Source: Gavia stellata (Eukaryota > Chordata > Aves > Gaviiformes > Gaviidae). From it: a DNA stretch of 64,000 bases. Shown piece after piece: positions 20,901-64,000 of the stretch (positions are counted from its first letter, which is position 1; each line of letters begins with the position of its first letter). Where the stretch lies: NCBI RefSeq assembly GCF_030936135.1, contig NC_082618.1:6235034-6299033 (forward strand). The letters run 5' to 3'. A model generated the notes under the pieces. The model saw only the letters and a program-made list of their open reading frames with translations, did not search any database and was not told the origin of the DNA. The translations under genes and the position numbers were made by a program.

Positions 20901-23900
20901 AGGAGGGTGGGTCAGAGCCCAGCGCAGCCCGAGCCTCTGTGCTGTGGTGGGACAGAGGGTGGGGAGAGAAGGAGAAGGGAGGAAGGAAATGTATGGATGA
21001 ATGGCTGCTGGCTAGGTAGCAAAGAAGAAAGGATGGATAACGATAGATGAACCAGCAGAGAGAATGGAGGGTCGTGGATGGATGGATGGAAGGAAGGAGA
21101 CAGGCAAATCAGGAATGGTTGGACAGCAAAAGAATAGCTCTAGGAAGAGGGAGAAGAGGCAATGGATGGAAGGATGGATGGACAGCACAATGGCTCAGGG
21201 GATGGAAGGAAGGATGGAAGGAAGGATGGAAGGAAGGATGGAAGGAAGGATGGAAGGAAGGATGGAAGGAAGGATGGAAGGAAGGATGGAAGGAAGGATG
21301 GAAGGAAGGATGGAGAGCACAACAGGTCAGGAGATGAAAGGAAGATGGATGGAAGGATAAAGGATGGACAGAGAAGCAAAACAGCTCAGGAGACTCCAGT
21401 GCCCACACCACTGTTCCCAGCCCCCACTCTGGTTTCTAGCAGCCCCTGGGAGGGAAGGCAGCTCTTGTGCCCCCACCTCTGGCTGGGTTTGGGAGGACAG
21501 AAAGGTTAAGCCCTGGCCACTGGCTCTGCTCTGCGGCCCACTGTAGTTAACGGGATTTGCAGCGCCTGACCTGCATTCCCGGGTTTATTAGGCTGGCGCA
21601 GAGGGGACCATATGGTCCTTCCACCCTCACAGCTCAGCACCGCAAGAAAAAAGCAGATCTCCGTGCCTGGCCAGGCTCCGAATGGCCCAGGGGCTGCCTG
21701 GACCAGCCCCAGGCTGACAAGCCACCCCAGCCCCACAGCAGTATGGGACATGACTCCTGTGTGTCCCCTCCTTCCCACCCCACAGCAGCCCGCAGGGAGC
21801 CGGGGTGACCTGCAACCCACAGTGGGGAGAGGGGGGAAGACAGGGAGATGGAAACACAGAACTGCCAGCAACCCCCTCGCCAAGCCCCCACATCTGCCCA
21901 GCCAGATGTGCCCCACGCTGGCCACAGCCGCACAGCCAGATGGGCTGAGCCGCTTTCCCCATCCGCGAGGGCAAACGGGGACAGCGACAGCACCCTCCAG
22001 CCATGCCTCAAAATCAAGAAGATGCCCCAGGCCGAGGGGCTTTGGCACTGCAAAAAGCAGCACCCCTCATCAAGAGCCCCGCTGCGGGGTTTCAGTCACC
22101 ACCAGCCACCCTCTTGCTCCATCCCCCCTGCTTGGCGGCGCTGGGGTCAGACAGACTGACTGACACATGGGAAGAGAGGCTGTCGGACAGACTGGACGTA
22201 GCTATGGCTGGTGGGGGACACTGGCTCATTCGCCTTCCCTTCTTTCCCCAGATGCCCAGCAAACGGGGCATGGGGGGAGCATGGCTTGGTCCCTCCATCC
22301 TGCACCCGCTGCAGCCTCGCCAGCCCCATCCCTGCTCCCATCCACCATCCCGAGGCCGAAGAGCCTCCTTCTCCTCATTTTCCCCTTATCCAGCACTGAT
22401 AGCCAGCACTGACCTTCAGCTTAGCCCCAGCCCCAGCTGTCTGCCATAGGGATCACTTTAGCTACGCTCCGGGGGTGATCTTTATCCTGGCTTATCCTGT
22501 GGGATGCAGCGGGGGGCTCCCAGCACATATATCCCCACTTAGCAGGGGAAGAGCATATAGGAAAAAGCTCTGGAGAAGAAGAAGAGGGAAGGGAGCTTTG
22601 AGGTCATGCCAGGAGGGTTAAAACCTCTCATGGTGTTAATGGGCAGTGCTGGGGGCTTGGTGTATCAATGGGCCAGACGGAGGTCCGAGGGAGATGCCGA
22701 AATAGTGGTGATGTGAGACACCAGCCTGGGCTGCCCTGTCTCCTGCCAGGCCACCGCCACGCACAGTGGCCACCACCACGCACAGTGGCCACGGCCCACA
22801 CCAGCCCATCGTGGCTGAGCTACTGTGGTGGTCCCGCATCAGAGCGAGCTGGGAAAGTCATCCATAAAGCAATGACTTGAGCTGACACGATGACAAAAAC
22901 CCCAATAAATACATGGGAAGGGCTGCGGGGAGGGACGGCGGGGTGGTGGCGGGGAGCTGTGTTACTGTCCATAACAGAGGGCTTCACACTGGGTCCAAGC
23001 CTGGCTCAGGACTCCTGTGGAGGGGTTCTGGCACTCACTGGTTGCCAGGATTCCTGGCCACAGGATGAAAAGGCAGCAGGATTTCATCAGTGGCCAAAGC
23101 CCCCGGACACGGGCCCCGGGACCCTGCCAACTGCAGCAGCCCAGCTATCGTCTCCGGCTCTCTGCAAACACAAGCAGGGGATGCTTCTCCTCACAGCCAC
23201 GCAGCAATATCCCTCCCACGGGGCTGCAGGGACCACCAGTCATGCCGGGACCACTAGTGCTCCCATTCTGCCCAGACCCTGACCCATATCAGGGTGACAA
23301 GGTGACGATCCCACCCCTGAATCAGGAAGACGAGGGCAGGACAGGGCGCTGCCTCAGTTTCTCCACATGGGTCAGCACCCGGATGAGACAATGGGGTGAC
23401 AGGTCTACCCAAAATGCCGAGAGCCAGGGGTCCATGGCAAAACCCCGCAGCCCCCGAGGAGGAAGCCCAGCCCGGCTGTTCCCCACCAGGACACCAGCAC
23501 AGATATCCCAATTAGTGTTTCATTTCAAGCCAGCACAAAGCCACCCCGCTCCGCCGAGCATCCCCCAGATCCCCGGCTGAGCCTTCAGAGACCCAAAATC
23601 TAGTGGTCCAGGTTTTGCCCCCACAGCTGTCAGAGCCAAGCGCAAAGGGGAAACACAAGCGGCAATGGCCCCAAATGCCAGGGATGTCCCACATCTGGAA
23701 CTCCCACATCTGGAACTCCCCCATCTGGATGTCCCAACAGCTGGATGCTCCAGCTAGAGGTGGCCCCAGCTCCCAGGGAAGGGCCGGGCTCGCACCCCAT
23801 CTTCCCATCCGTCCTGGGAACGGGCATCGCACCCATCCCTTTCCATCCCCGCCCCGTAGCACTGATCCCCGCCATGTCACACTCCCACCCAAGGGGGATC

Positions 23901-56063: not shown

Positions 56064-56721
56064 ATGGCGAAGGTGGACGGGGTGGTCTGCACCCTCCTCC
56101 TCCTCACCGTGCTGTGCTGCCAGAGCTTGGCTCAGAGTGAGTACTGCTGCCCGCTCTGTCCCCGCGGGCTAGGGGACGGGGACAGTACCCAGGGCTGCAG
56201 GGATGGGTTTGCTTTGTGCATGGCGTGCAGGGGGGCAATCCCCAAAAAGCCACCATGCCCATGGCAGGAGGGCTGAGATGGGAGGTGAGGGTCTCCAGGC
56301 TAAGCCGAGCTTGTGCTGTCCCCCCAGGAGCCCCAGCCGTGCCGGACAAGTGCTGCTTCAACTTCCAGACAAGAAGGATCAAGAGAGACAACGTCATCGC
56401 CTGCTACCCCACCAGCCCCGAGTGCCCGCACCAGGCTGTGATGTGAGTACCCTAAACCCAGCCCTGTGGGGTAAAGCCCCTCTAGACCCTGCCAGACCCC
56501 GTGCCTTGCTTTGGTGGGTCCAATCCTGATCGTCTGTGCTTCCGAGCCCTTCGGAAACTCAGCGCCAGAGTCCCCGTACCATCACCCTGCTAACCCCGTC
56601 TTCTCTCTGCCCCAGCTTCAGGGTGAGGAGCGGGAAGGAGATCTGTGCCCAGGCAAGCAGGGCCTGGGTGAAGAGGTACCAGCAGAGCTTCCAAGTCAGC
56701 TCCTTCTCCATCCCCAGCTAG
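56064..56721 (+). CDS. CC chemokine, MCP/CCL1-like (gene A)
   Basis: Secreted CC chemokine, expected to signal to leukocytes through a CC chemokine receptor. Exons are 56064-56136, 56328-56442 and 56616-56721 (stop TAG 56719-56721), with phases 1 and 2, giving 97 residues. The signal peptide is about 1-24 (core TLLLLTVLC, ending SLAQ). The mature protein has the adjacent pair Cys33-Cys34, then Cys57 and Cys73, plus the family run AVIFRVRSGKEIC and an amphipathic C-terminal helix (AWVKRYQQ). An extra Cys50 sits just before Tyr51, as in human CCL1, but there is no sixth Cys in the tail to pair with it. It is the chemokine nearest TMEM132E, the place CCL1 occupies in human. CCL1 orthology is therefore possible but unproven, and MCP-type relatives fit nearly as well. 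The ATG has G at -3 and +4. Confidence 0.95.
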
Positions 56722-57209: not shown

Positions 57210-57880
57210 CTTTCCTACCGGGATGTTAAATCACATCTGTAAGTGCTGGGGTCAGTATGGAGCCGGGAAGAGCCAAAGCTCCAACCATGTCTCTGTGAGG
57301 GGGTGTGGGGGGGTGCATGGGGCCAAACCATGTCCACACAGGCTTTGGGGAAGCCACCAGTGAGAAGGTCAAGAAGCAGGCACAGCCCGTGAGGAGGGGG
57401 CTTCCCATGCTCCTCGTCAGCCATCCTAACAACTGGAGACCCCAGCCCAAATTCAATCAGATCTGCCCCTGAAGGATGCCTGGTCGGGCCCCACTGACAG
57501 CCCACACTCCGGGGATGCCACGAGGAGATATGATGGGCACTGCCACTGTGACAGGCACCATGATGGACACAGCCACCGCGATGGGCAGCTAGCAATGGGT
57601 CTCAAAGTGGGCAGGGGTGAGCCTGGCCACTGCCAAGCCACTCACTCCGGTGCAAAACTGCAAGAGAGGCATCGCAGCTGAGCTGACAAGAGGTGGTTTT
57701 TGAAAATAAACATGCCGGGCGTTTGGCAATCACGAGCATCATCCTGTGTGGTTTGTTGGCGGCAACAACCAAACCTAAAATAGACTGACGGCCCCGGCGC
57801 ATCACCAGTGGTGCAGAGCTGCCGGCTGCTTGCCATACTTTCCAGCAGCCCTCGGGTACCGCAGGGGCTGGAGGGGCTAG
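57210..57880. other. Intergenic between genes A and B
   Basis: I see no gene, RNA or mobile element in this stretch. Confidence 0.6.
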
Positions 57881-57885
57881 GAGAA

Positions 57886-57987
57886 GGAATTTCCATTCAC
57901 CGGTTGCCCTTTATCAATATCTCCGGGCGGTTCTTTCCCCGGGGAGAGTCCAGAGCTGTCATGGAAAGCCTGGCCGGGGTGTATATC
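57886..57987 (+). promoter_or_regulatory. Candidate promoter of gene B
   Basis: A kappaB-like GGAATTTCC lies at 57886-57894 and a TATA-like TATATC at 57982-57987, 97 nt before the ATG. Spacing to the ATG is nearly the same as in gene C. These are motif matches only. Confidence 0.45.
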
Positions 57988-58083
57988 ATGCTGAGGTGCA
58001 GGCAGGAGAGGCAGGTAGCTCTTGGTGGCTCTGAGGCAGCAAGAACTGCTGGCTGCTGGTGCTGATCGAGCCCTGGGTTGGAC

Positions 58084-59191
58084 ATGAAGGTCTTCTCCTT
58101 GGCCTTGCTGACCCTGCTGCTGCTGGCTATCTGGGCTGAAAGCGAGGGTGTGTCCTGTAAGTACTGCACCGAGCCTTTCCCCACAGTTGCCCCGGTTCCG
58201 TCCCCAGCTCCTCCACTGATGGGGTTTTGGGGGGTCGGGGAGGGGGACTATAGCTTCAAATCCTGCTTCTGCCATGGGTTTGGAGGGCTGAGGGGCATCA
58301 CCAGCTGCCCAAGAACGGGGCTGTCCTGGTCTCATCCAGAATGAGTAAAAATAGGCTTGGGGATGGCTTCAGCCCCAGCACCCTGGCTGGGGAGCTCAGT
58401 AATAACCCCCTGCAAGCAGGGAAACGGGGGGCTTCTACCCTGGGGCAAAGCAGCACCACTGGGGATGTGAGAGGGGACCCCCTGTAGTGGGACGGAGCAG
58501 GGGAGCACCCAGACCCCTCATGCCAGGTGTGAGAGACCACCAAACCCTCTTGCCTCCTCTCAGTCCGCAGCCCCTACAGCGCATGCTGCTACAAGGAGAT
58601 GTTCATCCAGCAGAAAATCCCTGCCTTCCTCATCACGAGCTACCAGAGGACGCCTTCCCACTGCTCCCGCAAGGCCGTGCGGTGAGTACCCCCAGCCCCC
58701 TCCCGGCCATCCTCCCTGGCACCCCACTCCTCACCCTCGCTTGCCCACCTTCCCTACCAGTTGTTCTGCCTTCAGGGATCCCCCAAAACAAGCCACCCCC
58801 AAAAGGGTGCCATGGGTGGGGGTGCCCTGCCCTGGCTCTTCACATGCACCTCCCTCCTCACTGCTTTACCCAAATAGCCCCAAAATCCCCCGTTTCAGAT
58901 GCCAGCCAGAAAAACGGGAAGGAAGCCGAGGTTTCAGAGACTGCTAAAAGTCAGCACTTTGGGGGGATGCGGGGGGCAGGATGCCGCAGGCATCCCCAGG
59001 CTGGTGAGGGAACGCCAGGGCACAGCCGGATTCTACACCCCCCCAGCTAACACAGCCCCTCTCTCCCCCTTAGTGTGGAGCTGCTGAAGGGGAAGAAGGT
59101 CTGTGTGGACCCGAAAGAGGGCTGGTTCCAGAAGTACCAGCAGCAGAAAAAGTACCAGCAGCAGCAGAAGTCAACCAGCACCTCCACATGA
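58084..59191 (+). CDS. CC chemokine, MCP-like with Gln-rich tail (gene B)
   Basis: Exons are 58084-58156, 58564-58681 and 59074-59191 (TGA 59189-59191), phases 1 and 2, giving 102 residues. The signal peptide (core LALLTLLLLAIW) should be cut after about residue 22-24. The mature part has the pair Cys32-Cys33, then Cys58 and Cys74, with family marks RKAV and GKKVCVDPKEGW. The spacing between the second and third Cys is 25 residues, two more than in genes A and C, so the N-loop or 30s loop is longer. The C-terminal helix runs into a Lys/Gln-rich tail with a repeated KYQQQ unit and ends STSTST. It is transcribed in the same direction as gene A, about 1.4 kb further on. I assign it to the CC family with confidence. 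A one-to-one orthologue cannot be named from sequence alone. Confidence 0.95.
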
Positions 59192-59210
59192 AACTGCCTT
59201 CCATATAAGC

Positions 59211-59329
59211 TCTATTTATTTGCATCCCACAATTATCTGTATGTTCTCGTCTCGTTAAGTTATGGAGCCGACTCTCCCCTGCTGTCGCCCCCTCCACACT
59301 ACTAAACATCCCTCGATGGGTTTAATAAA
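59211..59329 (+). terminator. 3' UTR of gene B: AU-rich element and poly(A) signal
   Basis: TATTTATTT at 59213-59221 matches the core of an AU-rich mRNA-decay element. AATAAA at 59324-59329 is the poly(A) signal, 133 nt past the stop codon. Confidence 0.65.
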
Positions 59330-59339
59330 ACATCTTGTG

Positions 59340-60080
59340 CAGACCTGCAGCTGGAGTGAGATGATGTAAATCCTGGGGGAGAAAACAGGGGTCAAAGGGG
59401 TTTAAGGATGCCCTGGGCAGTGGCCCGCCCAGTGGGATGCAGATTGAGGCAGGGGTAAAGGCAGGCGCAGGCTGGCAATGGGAGAAAGGTTGGGTTTGGG
59501 GGGGGCTTTTGAGGGTCGCTTTGGTTTTCTCCCAGCTGGATCAAGCAGTTAAACGGGGGTGGCTGCAGAAGGAGTGGTGCTTGGAGGTTTAGCACCGTCC
59601 TTCAGCCCTGGCCAGACCCCACCGATGGGCACCCAGGGGGGTGACCCTCCTTGTGCCGGGGGGCTCCAGGTCCCCGGTACTCATCTTGTCTCATGGGAAA
59701 ATCCTCCCACAGCCCCTAGAGCCCATACACCCACCGCAGCAAAGAAGAAATTGAAAACGAAGATGCTTTTGGGCAGGTTTCCAGCAAGTGCAGGGAGCCT
59801 ACTCCGGCCACGCAGGTTGGGAGCTAACTCTGTATCCCTGCTGTGACCGGTGGAGCAGGGTGAGAAGTGGTATTTGTGGCAAAACTGGGGATAAGTTGGG
59901 ATTTGACTCCTGGCAGTGGTTTTCTGCCAGCAATAGCGGCAGTGGCTGGGGGTGTCCGTGCCATGGCACCTGAGCTGGGCTGGGCTGTCCGCCCGCAGAG
60001 CAGCTCCGCAGCCCCCCGACACAGGGATGCTGCTGGGGCTGTTGCAAAGCAAATCCCTGCCCGGAGCTTGCTGGTGTTGC
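59340..60080. other. Intergenic between genes B and C
   Basis: No gene or repeat that I recognise. The left end of the inverted duplication may lie in this stretch, because the mirror copy runs past the window edge. Confidence 0.55.
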
Positions 60081-60262
60081 TTCACGGCTGCCTGCTCGGG
60101 CTTGCCATCAGGGCTCCGGCCATGGAGCTTCGTGCCCCAGCCTGGCTCCTGGCCGGTGGGGTCCTGGCAGCAGCGGCAGGGTCGGTGTCGTGGGGGTTTG
60201 GGCTGCGGCCGGTCCTCGCCGGGCACCCAGATGGAATCTGAAAGTCGCAGCCCTGTGGCCGG

Positions 60263-60397
60263 CACTTCCTCTGCTGCCGTTTCCTTGCCTTCTCCAGCTC
60301 AGCAAAACTGGAGGATCCTGACATAATTTCCCCACTATGACGCACTCCTTTTCTTTCCTTGAAACCCTGCGCCCGCCCAGCGGCCGGGGAATAAAAG
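60263..60397 (+). promoter_or_regulatory. Promoter of gene C
   Basis: An ETS/PU.1-type site (minus strand AGAGGAAGTG, 60263-60272), a GGGGAAATTA half-kappaB (minus strand, 60324-60333), a TGACGCA element near 60337 and a TATA box ATAAAAG at 60391-60397 stand in order before the ATG at 60494. The same set occurs in mirror form before gene D. Motif matches only, except that the TATA position is convincing. Confidence 0.5.
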
Positions 60398-60493
60398 GAG
60401 GGCATCGCCACAGGGGCCGAGCAGTGTGCAGAAGAGAGCCTGCAACCCCCCAGCTCCAGCCCCGCTCGCAGACCCCTCGGCCCCTGCAGCACC

Positions 60494-61254
60494 ATGGAGG
60501 TCCCCGCAGCCACCCTGGTCGCCCTCCTCCTCGTGGCCACCTGCTCCCCGTCCAAGGCCCATCTCGGTGAGTCCGGCATCGCCGCCCGCTCCTGGGACTG
60601 CGCGTACCATGGCTCCGCGGGAGCTTCCGGGGCCGCCGGAGAGCCCCATCCCCATCAGCAAGGACCCTCGTGGCTGTGGGGAGGGCTGGGAGCAGGAGAC
60701 CGCTGCCAATGCTGGGACTCAGGCTTGGGGCCAGGCGTCTCCTGGGGGGCCACCGCCAGGGAACAAGACGCAAGGAGGGGGGCGGGAGATGGGGAACCCC
60801 AAGAGCCGGTGGGGCCAGAGCCTCTGCTGTAGCCTGGGGTCTCACCAGGGCTGTCTGTCCGTCTCTCTGCCCTCACAGACGGTGTCCCCACCTCCTGCTG
60901 CTTCAGCTACCACCAGCGCCCCGTCCCGCGGGGCCTCATCGCCTCCACCTACATCACCAGCAGCAGCTGCACCCAGCCGGGCGTGATGTGAGTACCCACC
61001 GCTGCCGGGGGCTTGGGGTGCCATGGGCGGTGTAGTGCCCCGAGGGTGGCCGGGGGGCAGTGGGACACGGCCGGGGACACCCAGGGCACTGCCGGCGGTA
61101 CCCAGCGCAGGCACCCCGCTGCCCCGGCCGAGCGCCCCAACGCGGGTTTTCTCCTGGCAGCCTGGTCACCAAGAAGAAGAAGGAGCTGTGCGCGGACCCC
61201 GAGGCGTCCTGGGTGCAGGCGCATCTGAAGCACTTCCAGACCCTGAAGAACTGA
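60494..61254 (+). CDS. CC chemokine, MIP-1-like (gene C)
   Basis: Exons are 60494-60566, 60879-60987 and 61161-61254 (TGA 61252-61254), phases 1 and 2, giving 91 residues, with an ACC-ATG-G start context. The signal peptide is about 1-22 (core ATLVALLLVATC). The mature protein starts near His23 and carries PTSCCFSYHQRPVPRGLI with Cys31-Cys32, then Cys55 and Cys71. It also has the TKKKKELCADPEASWVQ block typical of the MIP-1/RANTES group, and a short helix ending QTLKN. The Lys-rich segment just before Cys71 is a likely glycosaminoglycan-binding site by family analogy. It probably attracts leukocytes through a CCR1/CCR5-type receptor, which is inference. It differs clearly from genes A and B. 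Gene D encodes the same protein. Confidence 0.95.
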
Positions 61255-61373
61255 CCCTTCCCCGCTGCCACCCGCGGTGCCCCCGGCACTACCCCCGGCG
61301 GGCTTGGCTTCCAGCCCCAGGCGCGCAAGAGACTACGTGAACTGCAGCCTGCTTCAACGGGAAAAATTATTCT

Positions 61374-61533
61374 ATTTAACTTATTTCAGAGAAACTAAAT
61401 ATTTTTGCTAAGAAAAGAGAAAATACAAAAATAATTTAAACTCTATTCAAATGATAATTTAAAGCAAAAAATAATTTAAACTATATCAATATGCCTGTTA
61501 ACAAAGAGTCAGGAGTTTTGATGCCTAAATAAA
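61374..61533 (+). terminator. 3' UTR of gene C: AU-rich stretch and poly(A) signal
   Basis: The UTR is strongly AU-rich from about 61365 to 61500, with an ATTTA at 61374-61378 and several AATTTAAA units, as in short-lived cytokine mRNAs. AATAAA is at 61528-61533. Confidence 0.7.
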
Positions 61534-61889
61534 GTGTTTGTGCAATCAACCCTTTTGGGTGTCTCTGAGGTCCCCGCTGGAGCCCCGACGGAGGAGAAGG
61601 GACCCACGGGGAGCCCCTTGCGCTCCCCATGCCCTGGGTTCGTGCTCCCCTCTGGGCAGAGCGGCCTCCGCCCCCCAGCACCTCCCACAGTGCTTCCCCC
61701 TCCCCAGCCTGGGTCCAGCAGCAATGCCACACAGCATGTCCCCAAGAGGTGACACCAGCATCTCACTGGGGCTGCCGGTGCCGGCTCCTCTTTGGGACAT
61801 GGCCTGGCAGCACCCGTGGTGCCAACAGGAGGGTCGGGCTCACTGGGGAGGCTCTTGCCCTGCAGAACTCGGGCACATCAGCAAACCCA

Positions 61890-62191
61890 CGGGTGAAGTT
61901 CCATCGTTTATTGGTGAGGATCTGCAGGTATCTGGGACAGGGGCTGAGGGCAGTTGGGGGTCAGGTTGTCCTTTGAGGATCCTGACCTCTTCTTCCTCAG
62001 CAGAAGTGACAGCTTGTGCGAGGTTCCCTGTGCCGGGGGGGGGGGGCAGAGTATGGGCCAGCTCCGAGTCGGGGGGCATCGACCTGTTGGGGATTTTGAT
62101 GCCCAGATGAAACATCTCCGCCTGGAAGGTCGCCACGTCCTGGCAAAGCGGTCAGTGAAAGCGGTGCAGGGCAGAGCACAGCGCCTGGCCC
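61890..62191 (-). other. Palindrome spacer; possible terminal exon on minus strand
   Basis: 302 bp not shared by the arms. On the minus strand there is a possible branch point (CACTGAC), then CAG at 62142-62140, then an open stretch whose first frame reads TFQAEMFHLGIKIPNRSM, and an AATAAA at 62... to 61907 in reverse (plus-strand TTTATT at 61907-61912). This looks like the last exon of another gene with its poly(A) signal, broken or blurred by a long C run at about 62036-62047. I cannot name the gene, and it may be chance. Confidence 0.3.
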
Positions 62192-62547
62192 TGGGTTTGC
62201 TGATGTGCCCGAGTTCTGCAGGGCAAGAGCCTCCCCAGTGAGCCCGACCCTCCTGTTGGCACCACGGGTGCTGCCAGGCCATGTCCCAAAGAGGAGCCGG
62301 CACCGGCAGCCCCAGTGAGATGCTGGTGTCACCTCTTGGGGACATGCTGTGTGGCATTGCTGCTGGACCCAGGCTGGGGAGGGGGAAGCACTGTGGGAGG
62401 TGCTGGGGGGCGGAGGCCGCCCTGCCCAGAGGGGAGCACGAACCCAGGGCATGGGGAGCGCAAGGGGCTCCCCGTGGGTCCCTTCTCCTCCGTCAGGGCT
62501 CCAGCAGGGACCTCAGAGACACCCAAAAGGGTTGATTGCACAAACAC

Positions 62548-62553
62548 TTTATT
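62548..62553 (-). terminator. Poly(A) signal of gene D
   Basis: Minus-strand AATAAA, mirror of the one in gene C. The AU-rich 3' UTR next to it (about 62580-62716) is the same as in gene C in the part I compared. Confidence 0.7.
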
Positions 62554-62826
62554 TAGGCAACAAAACTCCTGACTCTTTGTTAACAGGCATATTGATATAG
62601 TTTAAATTATTTTTTGCTTTAAATTATCATTTGAATAGAGTTTAAATTATTTTTGTATTTTCTCTTTTCTTAGCAAAAATATTTAGTTTCTCTGAAATAA
62701 GTTAAATAGAATAATTTTTCCCGTTGAAGCAGGCTGCAGTTCACGTAGTCTCTTGCGCGCCTGGGGCTGGAAGCCAAGCCCGCCGGGGGTAGTGCCGGGG
62801 GCACCGCGGGTGGCAGCGGGGAAGGG

Positions 62827-63587
62827 TCAGTTCTTCAGGGTCTGGAAGTGCTTCAGATGCGCCTGCACCCAGGACGCCTCGGGGTCCGCGCACAGCTCCT
62901 TCTTCTTCTTGGTGACCAGGCTGCCAGGAGAAAACCCGCGTTGGGGCGCTCGGCCGGGGCAGCGGGGTGCCTGCGCTGGGTACCGCCGGCAGTGCCCTGG
63001 GTGTCCCCGGCCGTGTCCCACTGCCCCCCGGCCACCCTCGGGGCACTACACCGCCCATGGCACCCCAAGCCCCCGGCAGCGGTGGGTACTCACATCACGC
63101 CCGGCTGGGTGCAGCTGCTGCTGGTGATGTAGGTGGAGGCGATGAGGCCCCGCGGGACGGGGCGCTGGTGGTAGCTGAAGCAGCAGGAGGTGGGGACACC
63201 GTCTGTGAGGGCAGAGAGACGGACAGACAGCCCTGGTGAGACCCCAGGCTACAGCAGAGGCTCTGGCCCCACCGGCTCTTGGGGTTCCCCATCTCCCACC
63301 CCCCTCCTTGCGTCTTGTTCCCTGGCGGTGGCCCCCCAGGAGACGCCTGGCCCCAAGCCTGAGTCCCAGCATTGGCAGCGGTCTCCTGCTCCCAGCCCTC
63401 CCCACAGCCACGAGGGTCCTTGCTGATGGGGATGGGGCTCTCCGGCGGCCCCGGAAGCTCCCGCGGAGCCATGGTACGCGCAGTCCCAGGAGCGGGCGGC
63501 GATGCCGGACTCACCGAGATGGGCCTTGGACGGGGAGCAGGTGGCCACGAGGAGGAGGGCGACCAGGGTGGCTGCGGGGACCTCCAT
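62827..63587 (-). CDS. CC chemokine, second copy of gene C (gene D)
   Basis: Minus-strand exons are 63515-63587, 63094-63202 and 62827-62920, the exact mirror of gene C. The 91-residue protein appears to be the same, residue for residue, with all four Cys (31, 32, 55, 71) and all splice sites kept. The arms do differ outside the exons (promoter, intron 1, 3' flank), so this is not simply the same DNA read twice, although two haplotypes joined by mistake would look like this too. Genes C and D converge, with their 3' ends about 1.57 kb apart. If real, it doubles the dose of one secreted chemokine. Confidence 0.9.
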
Positions 63588-63683
63588 GGTGCTGCAGGGG
63601 CCGAGGGGTCTGCGAGCGGGGCTGGAGCTGGGGGGTTGCAGGCTCTCTTCTGCACGCTGCTCGGCCCCTGTGGCGATGCCCTC

Positions 63684-63690
63684 CTTTTAT
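63684..63690 (-). promoter_or_regulatory. TATA box of gene D
   Basis: Minus-strand ATAAAAG, mirror of 60391-60397. The upstream elements of gene C are repeated as far as I compared, but this flank holds about half of the substitutions between the arms. Confidence 0.6.
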
Positions 63691-64000
63691 TCCCCGGCCG
63701 CTGGGCGGGCGCAGGGTTTCAAGGAAAGAAAAGGAGTGCGTCATAGTGGGGAAATTATGTCAGGATCCTCCAGTTTTGCTGAGCTGGAGAAGGCAAGGAA
63801 ACGGCAGCAGAGGAAGTGCCGGCCACGGGGCTGCGACTTTCAGATTCCATCTGGGTGCCCGGCAGGGACCGGCCGCAGCCCAAACCCCCACGACACCGAC
63901 CCTGCCACTGCTGCCAGGACCCCACCGGCCAGAAGCCAGGCTGGGGCACGAAGCTCCATGGCCGGAGCCCTGATGGCAAGCCCGAGCAGGCAGCCGTGAA

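Follow-up and report, generated by a model that had tools for sequence, protein, structure and literature searches.

Chemokine genes of the avian MCP family (CCLi5-10; CCL/MCP-L1-3 and CCL1L1/2 on chicken chromosome 19) form the described system closest to the locus reported here. The gene order at 4491-4508 kb of chicken chromosome 19 is CCL1L1, CCL1L2, MCP-L1, MCP-L2 and MCP-L3, and a second cluster at 240-266 kb holds CCL3L1, CCL4L1, CCL16 and CCL5 (PMC1082905; papers are cited by their PubMed Central (PMC) numbers). Gain and loss of MCP-family genes are already known because the number of members differs among chicken (6), turkey (5) and zebra finch (3) (PMC2935454), and birds are said to be without large chemokine clusters of the mammalian type (PMC3568907). 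Here we describe a near-perfect palindrome with two convergent copies of a CC chemokine gene in the bird Gavia stellata. The window, by which we mean the whole stretch of 64,000 nucleotides that was analysed, corresponds to C25:6235034-6299033, where C25 is our handle for its host contig of 13.5 Mb (NC_082618.1), and the assembly searched (GCF_030936135.1) comprised 1.32 Gb in 1185 contigs. Judging from the sequence, we read the palindrome as a real inverted duplication within the avian MCP/CCL1 chemokine cluster, with a probability of roughly 0.84.

The arms were compared by blastn of the window and the following 30 kb of the contig against themselves. The full arms were 2072 bp each with 14 substitutions and no indels, which corresponds to an identity of 99.32% over the 2072 bp, introns included, and a divergence of 0.68%. 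The palindrome measured about 4.4 kb overall, and its right arm is truncated by the window edge at 64000. When the window alone was searched, positions 60081-61892 aligned with 64000-62189 over 1812 bp, ungapped, with 12 mismatches and E = 0. These results reproduced the mirror symmetry proposed in the initial annotation, in which positions sum to 124081 over at least 1809 bp with no indels and about a dozen substitutions. The proposed spacer was also present, but it measured 296 bp by the full arm ends rather than 302 bp, a figure that counts from the mismatch at 61890.

A search of the surrounding 134 kb at E ≤ 1e-10 yielded the palindrome as the sole inverted pair, and its symmetry is therefore not due to chance. 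In a control of 224 kb around the loci studied, a non-random sample, one near-identical inverted pair (≥98% over ≥1 kb) was found, namely the palindrome itself. At E ≤ 1e-10, there were five further inverted pairs in the 40 kb taken from the MIP cluster described below (57-941 bp, 68-96% identity) and one in 40 kb of contig C5 (335 bp, 80%), with none in 10 kb of contig C44. The palindrome was not described in the titles and abstract openings of open-licence PMC papers among the matches listed, a collection outside which many papers lie.

Both arms ended sharply, at 59821 and 64260, and the left and right flanks were unrelated to each other. The left flank (57600-59825, 2.2 kb) and the spacer each matched only themselves in the assembly, and the 2.2-kb right flank had one non-self match, in which a 500-bp block at 64476-64976 aligned on contig C5 with a relative at 86%; these match counts are possibly low for repeats and stand as lower bounds. 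No N bases occurred in the 134 kb around the palindrome. The boundaries bear directly on the alternative named in the initial annotation, an assembly fold-back that joins two haplotypes; we count with it a false heterotype duplication, in which two haplotypes of a single chemokine gene are likewise joined head to head. After a fold-back of haplotypes, the mirroring should extend through the flank until the contig ends or a gap is reached; here the mirror ended after 2072 bp, past the window edge, in an unrelated and gap-free right flank, and a fold-back is therefore disfavoured and was dropped as the main explanation. The divergence of the arms does lie within the range of ordinary heterozygosity, as first noted, since 0.68% falls between the 0.34% and 0.95% of two birds, and long-read assemblies still contain false duplications within one scaffold, but a gap between the copies is a listed mark of such duplications (PMC9516828) and there were no N bases near the junctions. 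A join of haplotypes would also require two base-level misjoins, and the 1812-bp arm used as a query matched the two arms and a diverged paralog on C5 only, with no third near-identical copy. We consider such a join very unlikely.

A heterozygous inversion, with its two arrangements merged into one contig, would account for two copies with different outer flanks, but it needs a base-level join of spacer and inverted arm that is absent from either arrangement. With no gap and no second copy of the spacer in the assembly, we regard it as highly improbable. The sequence beyond the window edge can settle most of the question of duplication versus artefact.

The two genes converge on the spacer and encode an identical protein of 91 residues (Table 1). 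This product belongs to the CC chemokines: it matched PF00048 with E = 1e-19 and a score of 70.9 bits (cut-off 21.3), and it has adjacent first cysteines and a CCX22CX15C spacing, as counted by eye. The gene has three coding exons, the first of which holds a signal peptide, also judged by eye. Full coding capacity had been claimed for both copies and was borne out by intact frames with the same translation; poly(A) signals were likewise present in both, together with promoter-like sequence whose promoter role is putative. The proposed palindromic duplication with two intact genes is supported. On its minus strand, the spacer has an open frame followed by AATAAA at 61912-61907, resembling the last exon of some gene. 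Considered as a possible coding exon of another gene, this minus-strand frame gave no Pfam match at E ≤ 1.

Table 1. Positions of the palindrome, its two genes and the neighbouring chemokine genes (window numbering).
Feature	Position	Strand	Evidence
Left arm	59821-61892	+	self-blastn, 2072 bp
Spacer	61893-62188 (296 bp)		single assembly match
Right arm	62189-64260 (C25 to 6299293)	-	self-blastn; 62189-64000 in window, 260 bp beyond
Left TATA-like AATAAAAGG	60390-60398	+	AATAAA at 60390; putative promoter role
Left gene coding exon 1	60494-60566 (73 bp)	+	GT/AG sites, translation
Left gene coding exon 2	60879-60987 (109 bp)	+	GT/AG sites, translation
Left gene coding exon 3 with stop	61161-61254 (94 bp)	+	GT/AG sites, translation
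Left poly(A) signal AATAAA	61528-61533	+	sequence search
Right poly(A) signal	62548-62553	-	sequence search
Right gene coding exon 3	62827-62920	-	translation, protein same as left
Right gene coding exon 2	63094-63202	-	translation
Right gene coding exon 1	63515-63587	-	translation
Neighbour CC chemokine A, exons 2-3	56336-56694	+	Pfam, sequence comparison
Neighbour CC chemokine B, exons 2-3	58563-59191	+	Pfam, sequence comparison; CCX24CX15C

Two further CC chemokine genes, A and B, precede the palindrome on the plus strand, which is also the strand of the left copy. The cysteine spacing of B, counted by eye, equals that given for chicken CCL1L2 in Table 1 of PMC1082905. Three exon candidates on the minus strand, at 6.5-11.9 kb of the window, had TMEM132 family domains by Pfam; a crude splice-site script had kept 20 candidates in 134 kb, and from the 12 listed the three that looked like TMEM132 were sent to Pfam. 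We take the TMEM132 gene beside the palindrome to be TMEM132E by synteny, and in human CCL1 adjoins TMEM132E. MIP-type CC exons were found at C25:736-760 kb, about 5.5 Mb from the palindrome on the same contig; the two-cluster layout of chicken is thus also present here, with CC exons at this MIP cluster and at the palindrome. The underlying profile search for CC exons gave 11 exon matches but detected neither A nor B, and the counts from it must be read as lower bounds.

The protein of the palindrome gene showed 40-42% identity to three genes of the MIP cluster versus 34% to A and 30% to B, with four residues of one row assumed. Among the best 60 of 87 matches to solved structures, the closest by sequence were human CCL3 (69.3 bits), CCL4 (67.2 bits) and CCL5 (60.4 bits), and lower scores were obtained for human CCL13 (53.9 bits) and CCL2 (43.1 bits). 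The locus is identified as MCP/CCL1 by the TMEM132 exon candidates, the CCL1L2-type neighbour and the chicken gene order, and the palindrome gene sits in the avian MCP/CCL1 cluster by position, though in these comparisons its sequence appears nearer to MIP-type genes. The name MIP-1-like given in the initial annotation agrees with the best human sequence match, CCL3, but is misleading for the locus, which lies beside TMEM132 and a CCL1-like gene while the MIP-type genes lie at the other site. Within the MIP cluster, C25:752143-752241 holds a chemokine-like exon with an in-frame stop; it may belong to a pseudogene, or its frame may have been misread.

None of the 14 differences between the arms fell in the coding exons, although zero differences in the 276 coding bases alone was not unusual (P = 0.14). 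The difference at 61521 (62560 in the right arm) lies in the 3' untranslated region just ahead of the poly(A) signal at 61528, and the one at 60425 (63656 in the right arm) lies about 35 bp past the TATA-like sequence, probably in the 5' untranslated region. The earlier statement that the exons show no change is therefore right for the coding exons and wrong for the probable untranslated regions. Transitions made up 12 of the 14 differences, CpG was touched in one arm at 8 of the 14, and indels were absent even though the left arm contains 16 homopolymers of 5-6 bases; because of these three properties, the differences look like germline mutation and not read error.

The changed arm was polarised against the paralog on C5, which is 73% identical, with 60148, 60216 and 60217 read by eye from a second alignment. 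Changes were assigned to the left arm at 60216, 60217 and 61660 and to the right arm at 60148, 60254, 61521 and 61586, that is, both arms carry derived changes relative to the C5 paralog. Polarity was ambiguous at 60174 and 61575, where CpG decay on C5 may mislead, and at 60425, where two C5 promoter copies differ. The remaining positions (59949, 59992, 60783 and 61890) had no aligned C5 base.

Thirteen of the 14 differences lay outside the central 1.1 kb (60426-61520). In a simulation of 200,000 draws of 14 uniform positions, a stretch of 1096 bp or more that holds no more than one difference had P = 0.0055, for an interval chosen after the data were seen, and the longest empty gap had P = 0.032. 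This distribution hints that the arms have undergone gene conversion, and the earlier suggestion that conversion keeps them alike holds to that extent only. Carried further, the arms would be an old inverted pair kept alike by arm-to-arm conversion and not a recent duplication, which is a sub-case of a real palindrome, so that its odds overlap those of the inverted duplication; we rate it unlikely. The ratio of observed to expected CpG was higher in the arms (0.53 and 0.51) than in the 2-kb flanks (0.30 and 0.29) or in the paralog on C5 (0.29). GC-biased conversion could produce such a contrast, but the ratio was also high (0.48) in the spacer, for which there is no partner to convert with. 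A local CpG-rich stretch therefore suffices, and the ratio in the arms is no mark of conversion.

Apart from the post hoc choice of the difference-poor interval, the same pattern could result from purifying selection or from a CpG island at the promoter. The chicken genes MCP-L1 and MCP-L2 lie about 2 kb apart after CCL1L2 (PMC1082905), which would suit an old pair, the chicken genes being compared by order and spacing only, but zebra finch is reported with three MCP genes only (PMC2935454). Distinctly unlikely, in our view, is an old MCP-type inverted duplication whose gene body is kept identical by arm-to-arm conversion on an autosome-like bird chromosome while its edges drift. If it were true, the dose and the sequence of one chemokine would evolve in concert, and convergent read-through could also produce long hairpin RNA.

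An arm identity above 99% that includes the introns would fit a palindrome under gene conversion and is also expected of a young duplication; either the duplication is young, or conversion helped to keep the gene body alike. The neutral rate is near 2e-9 per site and year, and at this rate the divergence of 0.68% would correspond to roughly 1.7 million years if there was no gene conversion. The inverted duplication that we favour is probably young, in line with the initial annotation. In the proposed mechanism, a second, inverted copy of a 2072-bp block would have been placed 296 bp downstream of the first; the block holds a whole CC chemokine gene, from its upstream region through the three coding exons to the poly(A) signal. 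Inspection by eye of the junction strings, inner and outer, revealed no long sequence shared beyond the arms, from which we infer that the likely origin was a template switch (fold-back) in replication or repair. Since the left copy extends the plus-strand array formed by A and B, it is probably the parent. The expected effect would be a doubled dose of one chemokine, given two genes that encode the same protein.

Several points weigh against the inverted duplication as described. The structure rests on one assembled sequence of one individual, and the arm divergence falls between the two bird heterozygosities given above (PMC9516828), so that a two-allele origin is compatible with the divergence alone. 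Age and lineage-specificity were judged from a single genome, and both the choice of parent arm and the mechanism at the junction are our deductions.

The C5 paralog was tried and rejected as a guide to the parent arm. When arm and spacer were aligned locally with its 3' flank, the scores were 676 reading from the left and 751 from the right versus 474-555 for five shuffles of the left sequence, but both shared the same arm stretch and were gappy thereafter. Under stricter scoring, two matches stood out in 12 tests with 200 shuffles each (spacer, 64255-64480, 61700-61892 and pieces of the left flank), one of 26 bp inside the arm (0/200 shuffles) and one of 19 bp in 59700-60110 (1/200), and neither bears on the parent-arm question.

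The C5 paralog itself (C5:11137849-11140033, minus strand; 73% over gene and introns) encodes a related, complete-looking chemokine (PF00048, 3.7e-20, exons joined by eye). On this second large contig, a repeat interrupts the paralog at its promoter, part of which is duplicated (C5:11137849-11140545). The 86% relative of the right-flank block 64476-64976 lies six bases from the paralog, and its orientation relative to the gene matches that of the C25 block relative to the gene of the left arm, with the order swapped. Such a swapped order would fit the junction of a circle or of a tandem duplication. At C5:11140520-11140600, the right-flank block starts directly after the apparent 3' end of a CR1-like element, presumably CR1. 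PF00048 also matched a chemokine exon (32 bits) at C44:11290374-11290475, on a contig of 89 Mb, and this locus also has an exon resembling exon 3 of the C5 paralog. Within the window, positions 21200-21393 hold a tandem array of GGATGGAAGGAA with 9.6 copies at 100% match, which overlaps an array with a 60-bp period.

As to its kind, we see in the palindrome an ordinary inverted duplication of a gene, well preserved, from a family with known copy-number turnover. It provides a clean base-level case of inverted duplication among chemokines that differ in gene number between birds. If the structure is real, it would be a small natural test of gene conversion in short autosomal palindromes and of raised chemokine dose.

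Among known systems, Drosophila Hsp70 is an inverted gene pair homogenised by gene conversion. Mammalian X and Y palindromes resemble the present one in having inverted arms more than 99% alike (PMC8981503, PMC3723533). In contrast, the contig here is autosome-like, judging from the gene order of chicken chromosome 19, the arms are 2 kb, a single genome is concerned, and conversion is only hinted at. Copy-number variation of primate CCL3-like genes shares with this locus the gain of full chemokine genes and a possible dose effect (PMC2621346). It differs in that it concerns the MIP locus and mammals, and to our knowledge it is not an inverted palindrome. Origin-dependent inverted-repeat amplification (ODIRA) in yeast also creates a de novo inverted junction without long homology, but typically yields inverted triplications (PMC11790251), whereas the palindrome here has two copies only.

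Set against the avian MCP family, whose chicken copies were compared by order and spacing, the present pair is distinguished by two copies that are 99.3% identical and inverted. The palindrome gene has its best sequence match in human CCL3, whereas chicken MCP-L is somewhat nearer to human CCL13 and mouse CCL2 (PMC1082905). With the same family, the locus shares a site beside a CCL1-like gene and TMEM132, the CCX22CX15C motif as seen by eye, and a copy number that varies between birds (PMC2935454).

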